Shown here piece by piece: positions 11,232 through 18,391 of a stretch of DNA of 23,068 bases. The stretch's first letter is position 1. Each line of letters begins with the position of its first letter. Where the stretch lies: positions 1 to 23,068 of the IMG/VR virus record IMGVR_UViG_3300037010_001609. One strand, 5' to 3'. The notes beneath the pieces are model-generated. The model saw only the letters and a program-made list of their open reading frames with translations. It did not search any database and was not told the DNA's origin. The position numbers and the translations under genes are program-made. This DNA is from a virus.

Positions 11232-11642
11232 TTATTGAGGGAGCTGTGTCACAACGACACCCTTATCTTGCAAGTATTGAATCCCTTTTTCGTTTTTGAA
11301 CGCATCGTTGTAATACACTTCACGTATTCCAAAATTGAAAATTAAGAAAGCACACTCAATGCAAGGCGCTGTTGTGACAAAAAGGACTGCACCATCGCCA
11401 GTTTCTGGCGATTGTTCTAATTTTCGTATAGCATTATCTTCCGCATGAATTACGGTATCAAACGTGTGGCCACTGGCATCCTCACACTGATTGTCAGCTC
11501 CTGACGGAGTGCCATTATAACCAATGGAAATAATCCGGTCATTTTTAACCACTACACACCCAACTTTACGCTTGTTGCAGTAGGATAAATCAGCATAAAT
11601 TTGAGCAGCTCGCATGTGAGCTTTTGAGTGACGTTCTTTCAT
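11232..11642 (-). CDS. Deoxycytidylate (dCMP) deaminase
   Basis: This 136-residue zinc-dependent deaminase converts dCMP to dUMP for dTMP synthesis. HAEDNAI (H66, E68) and APCIEC (C94, C97) provide the zinc ligands and proton shuttle. GYNGTPSG (41-48) and the N-terminal KRKVGCVVV strand are also typical of phage and cellular dCMP deaminases. ATG 11642 gives the usual family N-terminus; an in-frame TTG at 11672 would add 10 residues and has no better ribosome site. It is the first gene of the minus-strand unit with nrdJ, so the two steps of dNTP supply are made together. Confidence 0.88.
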   Translation of the reverse strand: MKERHSKAHMRAAQIYADLSYCNKRKVGCVVVKNDRIISIGYNGTPSGADNQCEDASGHTFDTVIHAEDNAIRKLEQSPETGDGAVLFVTTAPCIECAFLIFNFGIREVYYNDAFKNEKGIQYLQDKGVVVTQLPQ

Positions 11643-11715
11643 AGGCAGCTTATTTAGTATTGTTGTTTTCAAACCAACCCATCACCATAAAACGACGATA
11701 TTCTGTGGTGATTTG

Positions 11716-11744
11716 ATTATCCAAGCACTCGCCGTTAACCTCAA
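11716..11744 (-). promoter_or_regulatory. Sigma-70-like promoter for dCMP deaminase-nrdJ
   Basis: On the minus strand, TTGAGG (11739-11744) and GATAAT (11716-11721, 5 of 6 to TATAAT) are spaced by 17 bp. It lies about 75 nt upstream of ATG 11642 and is divergent from the plus-strand promoter at 11758. Confidence 0.5.
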
Positions 11745-11757
11745 CAGGTGATGCACG

Positions 11758-11785
11758 TTGACTTACTTTTTGTGTAGTATATACT
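11758..11785 (+). promoter_or_regulatory. Sigma-70-like promoter for the right arm
   Basis: TTGACT (11758-11763) and TATACT (11780-11785) are spaced by 16 bp. The predicted start near 11792 leaves a leader of about 60 nt before ATG 11854. The -10 box is identical to that of the HAD/2H promoter. Confidence 0.6.
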
Positions 11786-11802
11786 TGATCAAGTTCGTAC
11801 GC

Positions 11803-11823
11803 AGATGACGCCTGTCATCTTTT
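11803..11823 (+). promoter_or_regulatory. Leader hairpin with T-run
   Basis: AGATGAC (11803-11809) pairs with GTCATCT (11814-11820) around a GCCT loop, with Ts running to 11823. It begins about 11 nt into the transcript from the 11758 promoter. It could be a 5' stability hairpin or a weak attenuator. Confidence 0.4.
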
Positions 11824-11853
11824 CAAAACCCTGTCATACAAAGGATAACTACC

Positions 11854-12144
11854 ATGGCAGTTCCCGAAAAAGAAGTCCCCAAGGAAAAGGACGTTGGACA
11901 AATCGTTCGATACCTATCCGGTACGTTTAACCAGGCAACTGGTCAGCTTGAACGTGCTTTTCGCGGCAAGGGGCAAGGCCCAAATCTTGCCTACCGCCTG
12001 CAAACAGAGTTTGCATATCTGCTGAATGAGGTTACGCAAGGTCCTCGGTGTGTGTTGCAAAAGAACATCACCGCCTGCAACGAGTTCATTGATCAGGTCG
12101 TTCAAGATCTGAATCAACAAGCAGCAAACCGGCAGTCAGCGTAA
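11854..12144 (+). CDS. Hypothetical protein (96 residues)
   Basis: I do not recognise this protein. It has a Lys/Glu-rich start (PEKEVPKEKD), then a largely helical region with two cysteines (C66 and C75), and a Gln/Ala-rich end. AAAGGA upstream of ATG 11854 is a fair ribosome site. It is the first gene after the divergent promoter region, with a sigma-70 promoter at 11758, so early expression is likely. The next gene downstream has a late-type promoter. Confidence 0.75.
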   Translation: MAVPEKEVPKEKDVGQIVRYLSGTFNQATGQLERAFRGKGQGPNLAYRLQTEFAYLLNEVTQGPRCVLQKNITACNEFIDQVVQDLNQQAANRQSA

Positions 12145-12149
12145 GCACA

Positions 12150-12210
12150 AGGTCCTCAATGGTATAAATACCCAACACATTGTTGGGAAACTTATGCTAA
12201 TTGAGGACCT
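12150..12210 (+). promoter_or_regulatory. Nested inverted repeat around a late promoter and a start codon
   Basis: The outer arms AGGTCCTCAAT (12150-12160) and ATTGAGGACCT (12200-12210) are a perfect 11-bp inverted repeat. Inside lie the late box (12163-12170), then a perfect inner hairpin (CCCAACA 12171-12177, CAT loop, TGTTGGG 12181-12187) and ATG 12194. The inner 3' arm contains the GGG of the ribosome site, and the outer 3' arm covers codons 3 to 6. A late transcript would start near 12176 and lack the outer 5' arm and nearly all of the inner one. Confidence 0.7.
12163..12170 (+). promoter_or_regulatory. T4-type late promoter, TATAAATA
   Basis: This is an exact match to the T4 late consensus, 23 nt before ATG 12194. 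It lies between the arms of the inverted repeat described at 12150-12210. Confidence 0.7.
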
Positions 12211-12772
12211 AATTGGACGAAGCGTGGGCGTTGGCGTCCAAGAAGTTCAAGCCATAAAAACACATTGCTCGCAGTTCTTAACGGAATCTGCGAGATTGCC
12301 GTTGGTTAAAACACTTCCTACTACGTACTACAATTTCCACAAAGTCAAAATTCGATTGCAAAAGCGCAAGGATGAGGTATCAGATGTGTTTGAACGTGCG
12401 TTTGGAGAACAATTTTCAAACCTTCGACAGCGCGCAGTATTTGCTTACCCAAATCTACCTCCCGTTACAGAGGGGACAGATTTGTTTTACGTATTCCCTG
12501 TAAATGGATACAAATTTCTGTACAGCAAAGAGGTAACAAATTCAAGCAACGATTACAAACGAGTGATTGACACGCTGTTTGAACAGTTTGAAGACCCATC
12601 AACAGCGTCGGATATTGTTACTGATCTACTAAAATACACCTATTCCTCAACATTATTGCATGAGGGTATAGTTTCTGATTCAGAAATCATCCTGTATGGT
12701 ATACCATTCTACTATGCAGTACGAACTTCTGCATGCCAAGACTACAACTCTCTGTTAGCAATGGCAAAATAA
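12194..12772 (+). CDS. Hypothetical late protein (192 residues)
   Basis: I do not recognise a domain. The sequence is a mixed alpha/beta soluble protein with a basic stretch (KVKIRLQKRKDE near 50-61), aromatic-rich middle segments (LFYVFPVNGYKFLYSK near 97-112) and a hydrophobic C-terminal third. GGGAA upstream of ATG 12194 is the ribosome site, and it lies at the base of the inner hairpin. The exact late promoter box and the regulatory structure suggest a product wanted only late, such as a virion, assembly or lysis protein, but nothing in the sequence shows which. Confidence 0.75.
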   Translation: MLIEDLIGRSVGVGVQEVQAIKTHCSQFLTESARLPLVKTLPTTYYNFHKVKIRLQKRKDEVSDVFERAFGEQFSNLRQRAVFAYPNLPPVTEGTDLFYVFPVNGYKFLYSKEVTNSSNDYKRVIDTLFEQFEDPSTASDIVTDLLKYTYSSTLLHEGIVSDSEIILYGIPFYYAVRTSACQDYNSLLAMAK

Positions 12773-12780
12773 CATAAATA
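12773..12780 (+). promoter_or_regulatory. Candidate T4-type late promoter, CATAAATA
   Basis: This matches the late consensus at 7 of 8 positions. It begins right after the preceding stop codon and ends 16 nt before ATG 12797. No inverted repeat accompanies it. Confidence 0.55.
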
Positions 12781-12796
12781 CAACAAAAGGAATACT

Positions 12797-13111
12797 ATGG
12801 AACTCGCACTGTTTACAACTATTGGTGGTCACGAAGTTATCGGGAAGATTGTTGGAGAATTGTACGATGGTACGATCATCGTTCTGGAACATCCATTGGT
12901 TGTACGTCCAATTGAAAAGTCAAAGGGTCAATGGGCTCTCGATCTTTTCCCTCATAGCCTGTCAGATCCCGAAGGTGAACACAAGTTCTACACCAATGCG
13001 CTTGTTAGCCGGTCTGTTAAGGTTCCAGAAATGCTTGTTAAAGCGTATACAGAGCGCACATCAAGCATCATCCTTTCCTCCGCGTTGGATCAAATGGAAC
13101 GAATGAAGTAA
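12797..13111 (+). CDS. Small protein, possible Sm-like beta barrel
   Basis: This 104-residue protein begins with a strand pattern, TTIGGHEVIGKIVGELYDGT then IIVLEHPLVVRPIE. It resembles the Sm1 half of Sm/Hfq-like barrels, in which a G-x-x-x-x-G turn joins two strands. A second strand pair around KFYTNALVSRSVKVPEML could complete it, and a short helix ends the protein. The resemblance is by eye only. AAAAGGAA before ATG 12797 is a good ribosome site. The gene has its own late-type box and is followed, two bases after its stop, by the zinc-ribbon virion-like gene. Confidence 0.72.
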   Translation: MELALFTTIGGHEVIGKIVGELYDGTIIVLEHPLVVRPIEKSKGQWALDLFPHSLSDPEGEHKFYTNALVSRSVKVPEMLVKAYTERTSSIILSSALDQMERMK

Positions 13112-13112
13112 T

Positions 13113-14114
13113 ATGCCAAAAGTTGTAGTCAAAGGTGAGTCAGTATATAAGTGTAGCGTGTGCGCACGCAACATTCGTGTGCCAACAAACAAGCAGGGCC
13201 TTGATGTTTTATTGCGCTGCAACATTACCTACAACTGTCAAGGGAAACTGCGGCGCGTTACGCAGGCAAAGGAAATAAATCAAACCCCTGCATTTCCACC
13301 CGAGGTGCAGAACGTTGAAGATTGGTTTCAACGCAAGGTGTTGTACACACACGATCAACCCGTGCAGTCAACAACCTGGACAGTCAAACACAACTTAGCA
13401 AATCGTCCAAAACTTCACATTTTCGTATACCGAATTGTTGATGGTGTAAATGTGTTGGTAGACAGCACACCACTAACGGAAACAACAATTGACTTGAACA
13501 CAGTACAGGTCACGTTTGCAACAGCAGAATCTGGGTTAGCACAGTGCATCGCACTTGCATCCCAAAATTCAACTAACCCCGAGTCAACACAGCTTATCGT
13601 TGACACAACAACAGTGTTTCAAGTGTCAAGCAATGTTGGCGAGATTACGCTTGCCACGCTTTCTGCATCACCTCTTATCAGCTTGGCGTTGACATATAAG
13701 ACATCTGGTACGCAGTTGGATGTTGTGATCGATTATGCAGGTATTGACAATGTTCCTGCCATTGGTTCGCCGTGGGCTGGAACGTCTAACGTTGTGCTCA
13801 ACGGTAAAAAGTACACTGTGCGAAGTTTCAACATCACAACCACCCCGCTTGCCCCAGCGTATTTTGCAGCAGGGTCTATTCCGACGGGTTCGACTTTCTA
13901 TGTAAGCAACTTCAATGGCCATGTTCCTGTTACAGGTGAATGTTTGATGTTGTTGGGTCGTGATCCGTATGCAACCGTTGATAGAGTGCTGGACCGGTAC
14001 ATTGACGTATCCCAAATCAACACCGCCACCCCTGAAACATTTTACACATCTGGCAAGGGGTACACAGTTCCTACGCTGATTAAGCAGACATACCCGCTTA
14101 TTTTAGTTGTGTAA
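13113..14114 (+). CDS. Probable virion protein with N-terminal zinc ribbon
   Basis: This 333-residue protein starts with a small Cys module, C14-x2-C17 then C36 and C42, resembling a zinc ribbon. It is followed by TTWTVKHNLANRPKLHIFVY, a W-x-V-x-H-N-L pattern typical of beta-rich phage tail and baseplate modules. The rest is Thr/Ser/Val-rich beta sequence with few charged residues and ends in PLILVV. It directly follows a gene with a late-type promoter. The exact location in the particle is not evident. It might bind nucleic acid or another structural protein through the Cys module. Confidence 0.65.
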   Translation: MPKVVVKGESVYKCSVCARNIRVPTNKQGLDVLLRCNITYNCQGKLRRVTQAKEINQTPAFPPEVQNVEDWFQRKVLYTHDQPVQSTTWTVKHNLANRPKLHIFVYRIVDGVNVLVDSTPLTETTIDLNTVQVTFATAESGLAQCIALASQNSTNPESTQLIVDTTTVFQVSSNVGEITLATLSASPLISLALTYKTSGTQLDVVIDYAGIDNVPAIGSPWAGTSNVVLNGKKYTVRSFNITTTPLAPAYFAAGSIPTGSTFYVSNFNGHVPVTGECLMLLGRDPYATVDRVLDRYIDVSQINTATPETFYTSGKGYTVPTLIKQTYPLILVV

Positions 14115-16135: not shown

Positions 16136-16158
16136 AAGGGCCCTAACCAGGCCCTTTT
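16136..16158 (+). terminator. Rho-independent terminator after the WYL-like gene
   Basis: AAGGGCC (16136-16142) pairs with GGCCCTT (16150-16156) around a 7-nt loop, followed by TTCCTTTG. It closes the upstream unit just before the late promoter at 16171. Confidence 0.7.
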
Positions 16159-16164
16159 CCTTTG

Positions 16165-16210
16165 CTGTTCCATAAATACCGTGACAAACTATGTCACCGC
16201 AAGGGAACAG
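16165..16210 (+). promoter_or_regulatory. Second nested inverted repeat around a late promoter and ribosome site
   Basis: The outer arms are CTGTTCC (16165-16171) and GGAACAG (16204-16210). Between them lie the late box (16171-16178) and an inner hairpin (GTGACA 16181-16186, TGTCAC 16192-16197). The outer 3' arm covers most of the AAGGGAAC ribosome site of ATG 16216. A late transcript starting near 16184 would lose the outer 5' arm and most of the inner one. Confidence 0.65.
16171..16178 (+). promoter_or_regulatory. Candidate T4-type late promoter, CATAAATA
   Basis: This matches the late consensus at 7 of 8 positions. It sits between a terminator and ATG 16216 and inside the nested repeat at 16165-16210. 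Confidence 0.6.
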
Positions 16211-16215
16211 ACTTC

Positions 16216-17400
16216 ATGAAACTAATCAAACAACTAAATGACAACGCAAAGCGTACTATCGTAGCAGAAGATGCTGGTGGTGCAGTTGGTGGCGGTGACA
16301 TAGCAGGGGCAGGTATGGCTATGCCTCTTTTCTCACGTCTGGTACAACGTGGCAAGCCTACGAAAAAGACCGCAATTGTAAAATCTCCTGTGTTTGTTGC
16401 TAAGAAGCCAGGCCTTGGGTTAGCAGAAGCGTTCAAAACTCTTTCAGAGTTTGAAGGCGACGAACCAGCTGCTGGTGAGCAAAAACAACAAGATAACTTT
16501 GACTCATCAGAAGTGATTTCTAAGCTCAAAGGACTTGAACAAAAGGAAAAAATTGACCAACGTGATACTGTCACGTTTGGATTAGAGGACGATGACAGCA
16601 ATCTCGTACGCGTCACCGTTCGTTCGGAACAAGCAGAAGATTTTGAAAAAGCACTGCAATCGTTGATGTCAGCTCGTGAAGACGAGAACGATGAAATCCC
16701 TGAAATTGCAGAAGTGTTGTTCAAGCTGAAAGATCAGTTCGATATTGTTGACGTTCAATGGCCTGAGGTTGTTGAGGACGAAGAGGAGGTTAATGACCTT
16801 CAAGGCGGTGGACCGGAGGGTGCTGATGGAATGGATCCAAACGCTGCTGGTGATGAACTGGATCAACCTGATGAAATGGGTGGAATGGATGCGCCACCAG
16901 CAGGTGGTGATACTGGTCAAGTTACTGACTTGCTTACACAAGTGATTGATATGATGAAGGCTGACGCCGAGGCTCGCAAAGCAGAAGCACGTGCGCGTGA
17001 AGCAGAGGCAAAGACCAAAGAAGCTGACGCGTTGGTTGCTCAATCAATGTCACGTGTTAAGCAAGAAGAACAATATCTGGACATGGATAGCTACAACAAG
17101 GCAAAGAAGGATGAAGACAAAGAAGCAAAGCGTCTTGCCCAATTAGCAAAGTGGAAGCATGACATGGGTCGTGATCAAGGTAATGACGGCCGTGAGATGG
17201 ATACTGAACCAGCTGACGCACCATTGGTTCCGAACCCAGATGAAATGGGAATGGAACAAGAAGAACGATCATATCGTCGTCCTGCCCCTGTTCGCGCCCA
17301 GCCGCCCCAGCGCGCCCAGCCGCCCCAGCGCGCCCGTACAGTTCGAGGCCGTGTCGCCCCACATGATATTGCGCAGTTCATCATTGGTAGGGTGAAATAA
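16216..17400 (+). CDS. Acidic, coiled-coil late protein; candidate prohead core or internal head protein
   Basis: This 394-residue protein is low in hydrophobic residues. It has an acidic middle, a Gly/Met/Asp-rich linker (about 195-232), a long Ala/Lys/Glu coiled coil (about 245-315) and a Pro/Arg tail built on an 18-nt repeat. The start (MKLIKQLNDNAKRTIVAE, then D19) resembles T4 capsid-targeting peptides, where the head protease gp21 cuts after a hydrophobic-small-Glu triplet; here V16-A17-E18. ATG 16216 follows AAGGGAAC; longer upstream frames cross the promoter. The next gene also has such an N-terminus. A scaffold or internal role is inference from composition, promoter and N-terminus. 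Confidence 0.7.
   Translation: MKLIKQLNDNAKRTIVAEDAGGAVGGGDIAGAGMAMPLFSRLVQRGKPTKKTAIVKSPVFVAKKPGLGLAEAFKTLSEFEGDEPAAGEQKQQDNFDSSEVISKLKGLEQKEKIDQRDTVTFGLEDDDSNLVRVTVRSEQAEDFEKALQSLMSAREDENDEIPEIAEVLFKLKDQFDIVDVQWPEVVEDEEEVNDLQGGGPEGADGMDPNAAGDELDQPDEMGGMDAPPAGGDTGQVTDLLTQVIDMMKADAEARKAEARAREAEAKTKEADALVAQSMSRVKQEEQYLDMDSYNKAKKDEDKEAKRLAQLAKWKHDMGRDQGNDGREMDTEPADAPLVPNPDEMGMEQEERSYRRPAPVRAQPPQRAQPPQRARTVRGRVAPHDIAQFIIGRVK
17293..17335 (+). repeat. GC-rich 18-bp tandem repeat, 2.4 copies
   Basis: The unit CGCGCCCAGCCGCCCCAG (17293-17310) is repeated exactly at 17311-17328, with 7 more matching bases after. It encodes RAQPPQ units in the protein tail. Its nearly pure G+C stands out against the AT-leaning genome. 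Confidence 0.9.
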
Positions 17401-17719: not shown

Positions 17720-18391
17720 GTGTTCACACATTTAACCACAATCAGCCCCATAGAATTAAAGACCGTCGAAGGACCCAAAGGTCGATTCTATATTACACCC
17801 GAGGGTAACAAATACCCATCAATCACAACCATTCTTGGAGCCGGTGATAAACTATGGCTCCAAGAATGGAGAATGAGCATGGGGTTTGAAAAAGCTGACA
17901 AAGAAATGAAGCGTGCCGCCGATAGAGGTACCGCAGTTCATTCAATGGTTGAGAAGCATCTTGACAACGATCCCACACCGACAGCCGGCCACAATCACGA
18001 ACACATTCCTGGGTTCAATCAATTGCGCCTTCCGTTGCGGAAGGTGGACAATATCCTAACACAAGAGAGCGCGCTTTGGAGCGACACGCTACGGTGTGCA
18101 GGTAGAGTGGATTGCGTGGGAGAATACAAGGGTAAGTTGGCAATCATTGATTTCAAGACGTCAACAAACAATAAGACAGAAGCAATGGTGCAAGATTACT
18201 ACTTGCAGACAACTGCGTATGCACTGATGTTCCAGGAACGATACGGCATTCAGATTGATCATTTGGTCATTCTTATGAGCGTTGAACGTGGAGCTGTTCC
18301 GCTGGTATTTCAACAACCAATTGAGCCATATATTGAGCCGCTCCTTTTGCGTATAAATACGTATCACACTACGTACGGAGTTAAGTCATGA
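17720..18391 (+). CDS. PD-(D/E)XK exonuclease, RecB / MGME1-like
   Basis: This 223-residue nuclease has GRVDCVG (D131), AIIDFKTS (D144, K146) and YYLQTTAYAL (Q163) in order, the PD-(D/E)XK core of RecB-like nucleases. The N-terminus, PSITTIL (33-39), and RGTAVHSMVEKHL (69-81, with H74 and E78) match the single-strand exonuclease branch that includes mitochondrial MGME1 and many T4-like phage proteins. It probably trims DNA ends in replication or recombination. The start is GTG 17720, three bases after the previous stop; no other start precedes the conserved strand. Its TGA overlaps the next ATG, and the next gene's late promoter lies within its 3' end. Confidence 0.8.
   Translation: MFTHLTTISPIELKTVEGPKGRFYITPEGNKYPSITTILGAGDKLWLQEWRMSMGFEKADKEMKRAADRGTAVHSMVEKHLDNDPTPTAGHNHEHIPGFNQLRLPLRKVDNILTQESALWSDTLRCAGRVDCVGEYKGKLAIIDFKTSTNNKTEAMVQDYYLQTTAYALMFQERYGIQIDHLVILMSVERGAVPLVFQQPIEPYIEPLLLRINTYHTTYGVKS
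18352..18359 (+). promoter_or_regulatory. T4-type late promoter, TATAAATA, inside the exonuclease gene
   Basis: This is an exact consensus match, 28 nt before ATG 18388. It lies inside the palindrome CGTATAAATACG, and ACGTA/TACGT pairing follows directly. Confidence 0.6.

Follow-up and report, generated by a model that had tools for sequence, protein, structure and literature searches.

In phage T4, the late box of gene e lies in the 5' strand of a hairpin, and the ribosome site is hidden in the long early RNAs. The late RNA of gene e is made without the 5' strand of the hairpin, and e, soc, and 49 are named as one T4 class in the part of the review that deals with these genes (PMC3014915). 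T4 I-TevI, segB, and Aeh1 mobE are late genes within early or middle RNAs. Their ribosome sites are hidden in upstream transcripts and their late promoters sit at the hairpin, as described in the relevant sections of PMC2988022, where I-TevI is also reported to repress its own late promoter in T4 via an operator. A T4-like late motif was already published for a jumbo phage (PMC5259590).

The window, i.e., the whole stretch of 23,068 nt that was analysed, is part of a 65-kb contig (G001). The locus L003 within G001 and the locus L004 on a second contig are identical to the window sequence over 701 columns. Genes for topoisomerase, helicase, ribonucleotide reductase, and dCMP deaminase were recognized by Pfam and PHROGs, i.e., replication and nucleotide genes. 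Because of these genes and the helicase matches, the phage of the window is placed among the T4-like jumbo phages. No match was found for 11401-13200 in a DNA similarity search against the phage collection, and the Rfam search of the window gave 0 matches at the gathering score.

Late box and inverted repeats before the 12194 gene

The following features were assigned around the start of a 192-aa gene, hereafter the 12194 gene.

11758-11785, + strand, sigma-70-like early promoter TTGACT-16-TATACT from the promoter scan, predicted source of the read-through RNA
11854-12144, + strand, ORF, gene of 96 aa lying after the early promoter and before the putative switch
12150-12160, + strand, 5' arm of the outer stem, AGGTCCTCAAT, perfect over 11 bp
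12163-12170, + strand, T4-type late box TATAAATA, TATAA part at 12163-12167
12171-12177, + strand, 5' arm of the inner stem, CCCAACA, perfect over 7 bp, with the predicted late start (about 12176) inside
12176, + strand, predicted late transcription start, i.e., box end + 6 as in T4
12181-12187, + strand, 3' arm of the inner stem, TGTTGGG, with loop CAT and the GGG of the ribosome site at 12185-12187
12194-12772, + strand, ORF of 192 aa with ATG at 12194, the gene under the putative switch
12200-12210, + strand, 3' arm of the outer stem, ATTGAGGACCT, perfect over 11 bp, within codons 3-6 of the 12194 gene

With a probability of roughly 0.85, the region 12150-12210 is a late-only translation switch of the T4 e/soc/I-TevI type. 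The elements, folding, covariation, and family concentration were computed. The read-through RNA from the 11758 promoter would carry the whole region, and the outer stem, the inner stem, and a helix between the box and the start codon would hide the ribosome site and AUG, so that the gene would be silent early. Late in infection, a gp55-type sigma would start the RNA within the inner 5' arm, near 12176. The 5' pairing segments would be missing or truncated in this late RNA, and the gene would be translated.

The original prediction described a perfect 11-bp repeat enclosing the late box, a perfect 7-bp inner hairpin, and the ATG, and every element was found at its position. Four inverted repeats of at least 11 bp with a loop of at most 60 nt were present in the window, the outer repeat being one of them, against a mean of 0.2 in 20 shuffles. 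The box TATAAATA occurred in two copies (0.47 expected; 10 of 100 shuffles reached two), and ATAAATA in six copies, all on the + strand (2.29 expected). In the computed fold of the read-through RNA, TATAA of the box (12163-12167) pairs with TTATG (12192-12196). Because of this pairing, the outer and inner repeats form one structure with the start codon inside the joining helix, and the promoter box therefore doubles as the strand that hides AUG. The joining of both repeats by this helix was missed in the original prediction.

AGGTCCTC recurs in the 96-aa gene, at 12040-12047, where it could pair with the outer 3' arm as well. This copy is probably a coincidence, since a similar stretch in L006, GGGTCCTCG, mismatches the arms of L006 itself.

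The RNA of 12142-12220 folded at -33.1 kcal/mol, compared with -12.9 (sd 2.6) for its shuffles, i.e., z -7.8, and none of 200 shuffles was equally stable. The late RNA of 12176-12254 folded as its shuffles do (z -0.43). The start region had been claimed to be hidden in the RNA from the 11758 promoter and opened in a late RNA starting about 6 nt after the box, and the proposed comparison of RNAs from 11792 and from 12176 gave this contrast. Opening 12183-12196 costs 16.1 kcal/mol in the RNA from 11792 and 3.8 kcal/mol in the RNA from the presumed start at 12176, and the probability of an unpaired AUG is 0.002 and 0.34, respectively. With starts from 12174 to 12178 the cost was 3.7-3.9 kcal/mol, and with a start at 12172 it was 8.4 kcal/mol. 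When single segments of the long RNA were held unpaired, the cost fell to 11.7 (outer 5' arm), 10.4 (box segment), and 6.7 kcal/mol (inner 5' arm), so each segment contributes and the inner 5' arm contributes most. It was 4.9 kcal/mol with all three held unpaired.

Of the promoter at 11758, which had been predicted as a sigma-70 promoter, the site itself (TTGACT-16-TATACT) is present. It is weak alone, because the scan around it gave 8 promoter-like sites in 2 kb and shuffles already gave 4.3. A sigma-70-like site 403-437 nt before the start codon was found in 11 of 16 members of the 12194 family, window included, as a count with no shuffle control. One small gene lies between promoter and switch in the window, and a similar frame precedes the homolog in L006 by eye. 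No terminator-like site on the + strand was listed by the scan for 11785-12194.

The late motif was counted before called genes against five other A/T 7-mers, i.e., 45 versus 1-6 in G009 and 10 versus 0-1 in G001. ATAAATA reversed is ATAAATA itself, so the reversed-motif control column is void. A gp55-like late sigma was found in five of the 14 records searched, which are the five longer than 180 kb. None of the nine shorter records, the 65-kb contig of the window among them, gave a match. A gp45-like clamp was matched weakly in five of the 14 records. In T4, late RNA starts at box end + 6, and the predicted start at 12176 is consistent with an isolated 5-nt peak of the box-to-ATG distances described below.

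The same kind of calculation was applied to T4. For the two late boxes of gene e, the opening costs were 16.1 and 13.8 versus 4.1 and 1.6 kcal/mol, and hiding compared with shuffles gave p 0.060 and 0.005. In soc the contrast was smaller, i.e., 8.9 versus 6.5 kcal/mol with p 0.10. Among 13 T4 genes examined, TATAAATA lay within 70 nt for soc and e alone, and not for gene 49.

The site of the window and T4 gene e share the box-in-hairpin layout, and their computed contrasts are of equal size. The arms of one homolog, L035 (AATACCTCT/AGAGGTATT), resemble the e sequence. However, e functions in lysis and has two late boxes, whereas the window switch has one box before an unrelated gene and an additional outer stem of 11 bp that extends into the coding sequence. 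With I-TevI, segB, and mobE it would have in common a late gene in an early or middle RNA, a hidden ribosome site, and a late promoter placed at the hairpin. I-TevI, segB, and mobE encode mobile endonucleases, whereas the genes of the window belong to the phage, are conserved in relatives, and lie in a region of DNA metabolism. The T4 genes soc and 49 are named in the same class, but the contrast of soc is smaller and 49 is without TATAAATA in this range of 70 nt.

Homologs of the 12194 gene and a second site at 16216

The profile search with the 12194 product gave 29 loci. The window and 22 loci, i.e., 23 family members, were folded, and 21 of them had a box within 60 nt (ATAAATA, or CTAAATA in L036, L037, and L039). 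Seven loci were omitted from folding. L022, L023, and L025 are the window's own phage, and the start regions of L031, L042, and L046 are identical to those of L032, L043, and L047, respectively. L030 was judged to be a copy of L029 from match figures and not by sequence comparison.

Hiding in the read-through RNA exceeded that of upstream shuffles at p 0.05 in ten of the 21 boxed homologs and did not in the other 11. The Fisher p of 4e-9 for homolog hiding overstates independence, because the homologs share descent. In L027, L032, and L035 the pairing is present though not above shuffles, and the shuffle test is conservative for these three because the CCC-rich segment of the inner stem was kept in the shuffles. 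A gene and promoter kept with the pairing lost, which had been named as evidence against the switch, was seen in three of the 21 (L037, L039, and L049). These show no hiding, with a read-through opening cost of 1.0 kcal/mol; all are distant members with the box 5 nt before ATG.

Compensatory changes in relatives had been proposed as a check, and they were found, i.e., the arms differ and the pairing is kept. The arms are TCGACAAGCAT/ATGCTTGTCGA in L028, ATCCACAGACA/TGTCTGTGGAT in L029, AAATATCCCTACA/TGTAGGGATATTT in L036, ATATCCTC/GAGGATAT in L040, and TTACACGCAT/ATGCGTGTAA in L042, and short arms were seen by eye in L024 (ACCCC/GGGGT) and L027 (TACCCC/GGGGTA). In eight aligned members, the invariant positions are the ATAAATA motif, a single G in the ribosome site, ATGC, and six positions in the coding sequence. 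Arms upstream of the late start were swapped among 16 of the 21 boxed homologs (all but L037, L039, L044, L048, and L049). The opening cost was 11.87 kcal/mol with native and 6.65 kcal/mol with swapped arms (permutation p 5e-5), and the native arm was the best of 16 in seven cases.

Of the 50,697 records of the phage collection, XacN1, CM1, and RAS14 alone matched the 12194 product at E 0.01. They keep the gene, and it precedes ribonucleotide reductase genes in the two annotated records. ATAAATA is absent from the inspected stretch upstream of the gene in these three phages, which speaks neither for nor against the switch.

A second candidate switch was assigned in the window.

16165-16171, + strand, 5' arm CTGTTCC, its last base being the first of the box
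16171-16178, + strand, late box CATAAATA
16204-16210, + strand, 3' arm GGAACAG, overlapping the ribosome site AAGGGA
16216-17400, + strand, ORF of 394 aa with ATG at 16216, the gene under the second putative switch

The PHROGs search with the 16216 product gave no match. The product (beginning with MKLIKQLN...AEDAGGAVGGG, with many acidic residues and an Ala/Glu/Lys-rich stretch) resembles, as we presume, a prohead core or packaged protein. By eye, the arms in this family are GCCGTCC/GGACGGC in L056, CAGAGTC/GACTCTG in L064, TTGTCCTTATC/GATAAGGACAA in G004, and TTGTTAACCTA/TAGGTTAACAA in G012. When arms were swapped among 20 members, the cost fell from 10.12 to 6.30 kcal/mol (p 5e-5), and the native arm was the best in six of the 20. 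In five (L067, L074, L075, L076, and L078) the own arm hides no better. The swap set was made of 17 of the 34 loci and three contig sites; 21 members were given and L080 was lost for want of an open frame. The other loci were near copies, boxless, without a usable start, or not tried. Two members outside the swap set, in G005 and G011, showed no hiding (p 0.81 and 0.48).

Within 16136-16218 of the window, the region of the second candidate switch, a terminator-like hairpin, AAGGGC...GCCCTT, with a T-run is visible by eye just upstream of the box. A hairpin with a T-run directly before the box was also seen by eye in L053, L055, and L056 of the 16216 family, and a separate hairpin lies just before the box in L033, L038, L041, and L045, which are distant members of the 12194 family. 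These hairpins are possibly a second means against early expression.

The gene at 18388 is preceded by a third late box (18353-18388), where TACGTA repeats form, by eye, a short hairpin. The family with starts of the 18388 type showed weak and mixed hiding (+1.6 kcal/mol, n=7, the window copy being outside the set).

Late boxes of the related contigs and rival explanations

The boxed genes of 12 phage contigs were clustered, and 29 families had at least three members, of which a few count one gene twice by two overlapping boxes. The 16216 family ranked first (n=9, +5.8 kcal/mol over shuffles, seven of nine at p ≤0.04) and the 12194 family second (n=10, +4.2 kcal/mol, five of ten at p ≤0.02). 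The other late-gene families ranged from +3.4 to -2.8 kcal/mol, several being mildly positive. The 12797 family, whose gene lies between the two switches, showed no hiding (-0.7 kcal/mol, n=6); its arm-swap control had only three members and was without power.

Over ten contigs, 44 of 143 late boxes hid the start above shuffles at p ≤0.05 (100 shuffles each). Among non-late starts of nine of these contigs, 17 of 140 sampled from 655 eligible did so (60 shuffles each), which also exceeds the nominal 5%. The count was 14 of 125 in G010 and G011 together, and just 8% of the 78 late boxes of G010 exceeded shuffles. Use of the switch by all late genes of these phages was thus rejected, as hiding was present in a subset only and hardly in G010.

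A stricter count took perfect stems of at least 9 bp over the start region that are lost at the start site, with the expectation obtained by arm exchange. Observed and expected numbers were 8 versus 0.65 in G012, 3 versus 0.45 in G009, 5 versus 2.25 in G011, 3 versus 1.7 in G010, 2 versus 0 in G004, and 2 versus 0.43 in G014. The other six contigs had none. They include G001 (0 in 10 boxes), where the zero count arises because the outer 3' arm of the window lies outside the counted region. On the - strand of G012, perfect stems of about 11-15 bp that extend to the ribosome site were seen by eye at the late boxes at 43640, 101930, 111358, and 137824.

The repeats at 12150-12210 could instead be a transcription terminator or attenuator that halts the early RNA before the gene. 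A strong hairpin between two genes would suit this role, as would the separate hairpin before the box in L033, L038, L041, and L045. However, the + strand has no T-run after either stem, and the inner stem is terminator-like on the - strand only. Moreover, segments upstream of the late start covary with the 3' arms, whose ends fall at the ribosome site or within the first codons. This explanation is improbable. The dyad around the promoter is also operator-like, and the operator of T4 I-TevI is a precedent in the corresponding section of PMC2988022. It is very improbable, however, that the repeats are a DNA operator for a protein controlling the late promoter, as arm sequences vary among homologs while complementarity persists. 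G-U pairs seen by eye in the helices of L026, L060, and L062 also count against it, because such pairs are useful to an RNA and not to a DNA dyad.

That many late boxes of the same contigs lack excess pairing would agree with chance pairing next to an ordinary late promoter. This was considered the least credible reading in view of the z of -7.8, the arm-swap p of 5e-5 in two families, and the first and second ranks of 29 families. The structure may also act through RNA stability or processing and not on initiation directly, e.g., by cleavage of a helix that frees or destroys the message. The long helix of the read-through RNA could be a candidate cleavage site, and this explanation, though unlikely, is the most probable of the four. 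Against it, the start codon or ribosome site lies inside the pairing in the clear homologs, though the arm positions vary.

Predicted leaderless starts and the product of the 12194 gene

In six members of the 12194 family (L033, L034, L038, L041, L045, and L049), exactly 5 nt separate the end of the late box from ATG. The RNA would therefore begin with the A of ATG and be leaderless. A spacing of exactly 5 was found in 11 of 281 box-gene pairs within 60 nt in the 12 contigs, whereas spacings of 8-13 together gave one. For six other A/T 7-mers in the same contigs, one of 395 was at spacing 5. Three further contigs gave 4 of 64. The 15 genes with spacing 5 are in six of the 15 contigs, eight of them in G010, and genes for these counts were called with a simple ORF rule.

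In RAS14, six of seven spacing-5 ATGs are annotated gene starts (51064, 79047, 90522, 200386, 211397, and 281509), compared with 2 of 12 at spacings 6-14. In XacN1, three of four spacing-5 ATGs checked, of five in total, are annotated gene starts. The pattern and its reversed form were counted 7 versus 2 times in RAS14 and 5 versus 1 in XacN1. Counts made without comparison to gene starts were 6 versus 4 in Paride, 5 versus 2 in Atu_ph07, and 2 versus 0 in T4, and in XaC1 both were 0.

It is reasonable to propose, with about even chances, that T4-like jumbo phages make leaderless late mRNAs, and that one branch of the 12194 family rebuilt the switch accordingly. In that branch, the box and its flank would pair with the start codon and hide it in long RNA, while the late RNA would begin with this very AUG. 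Leaderless genes are not hidden as a class; the opening costs at 159469, 167393, and 328510 of G010 were 0.3, 0.2, and 1.0 kcal/mol. Phage transcripts are described as often leaderless in a passage of PMC5312081. No report on leaderless late mRNAs in T4-like phages was found in a literature search that covered few subscription papers, nor in passages of PMC9004378 and PMC5312081. The word "promoter" was absent from the XacN1 paper (PMC5852040) in a term look-up. The leaderless late messages are a candidate class with predicted examples in the cultured phage RAS14.

The 12194 gene had been called a gene of unknown function. This agrees with the Pfam and PHROGs searches, in which no function for the product was found, but the predicted fold weakly resembles ADP-ribosyltransferases (ART). 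The AlphaFold model was confident (mean pLDDT 84.4), and Foldseek gave nothing at E 0.001. A second structural comparison gave eight rows, with 2aua, a protein of unknown function, at the top (Z 6.2), two unrelated rows, and rifampin ART (Z 3.9 and 3.5), pertussis S1 (2.6), CopC (2.3), and OspC3 (2.2), where Z below 8 may reflect merely a common arrangement. Rifampin ART, pertussis S1, CopC, and OspC3 are, as we take them, ART-fold proteins. No ART was among the 19 Pfam families listed for 23 homologs, and the weak resemblance of the model is a lead and no assignment.

At 2815-4121 of L008, YRG and R[SN]xGVF-like motifs were noticed in two genes that lie in tandem, the first being a distant relative of the 12194 product. 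These motifs are presumably reminiscent of ADP-ribosyltransferase motifs. The N-terminus of the 12194 product, MLIEDLIG, resembles what we take to be the capsid-targeting leaders of T4 internal head proteins. If the product is a packaged protein, its packaging would be the reason for late-only synthesis.

The T4 examples in the cited parts of PMC3014915 and PMC2988022 are single genes, whereas the switch was here predicted for two families of genes in uncultured jumbo phages. Further switches could be sought from sequence only, by testing whether arms covary around late boxes. Because compensatory change keeps the switch in two gene families, the results suggest that the choice of the start site is a general means of timing late genes trapped in early operons.
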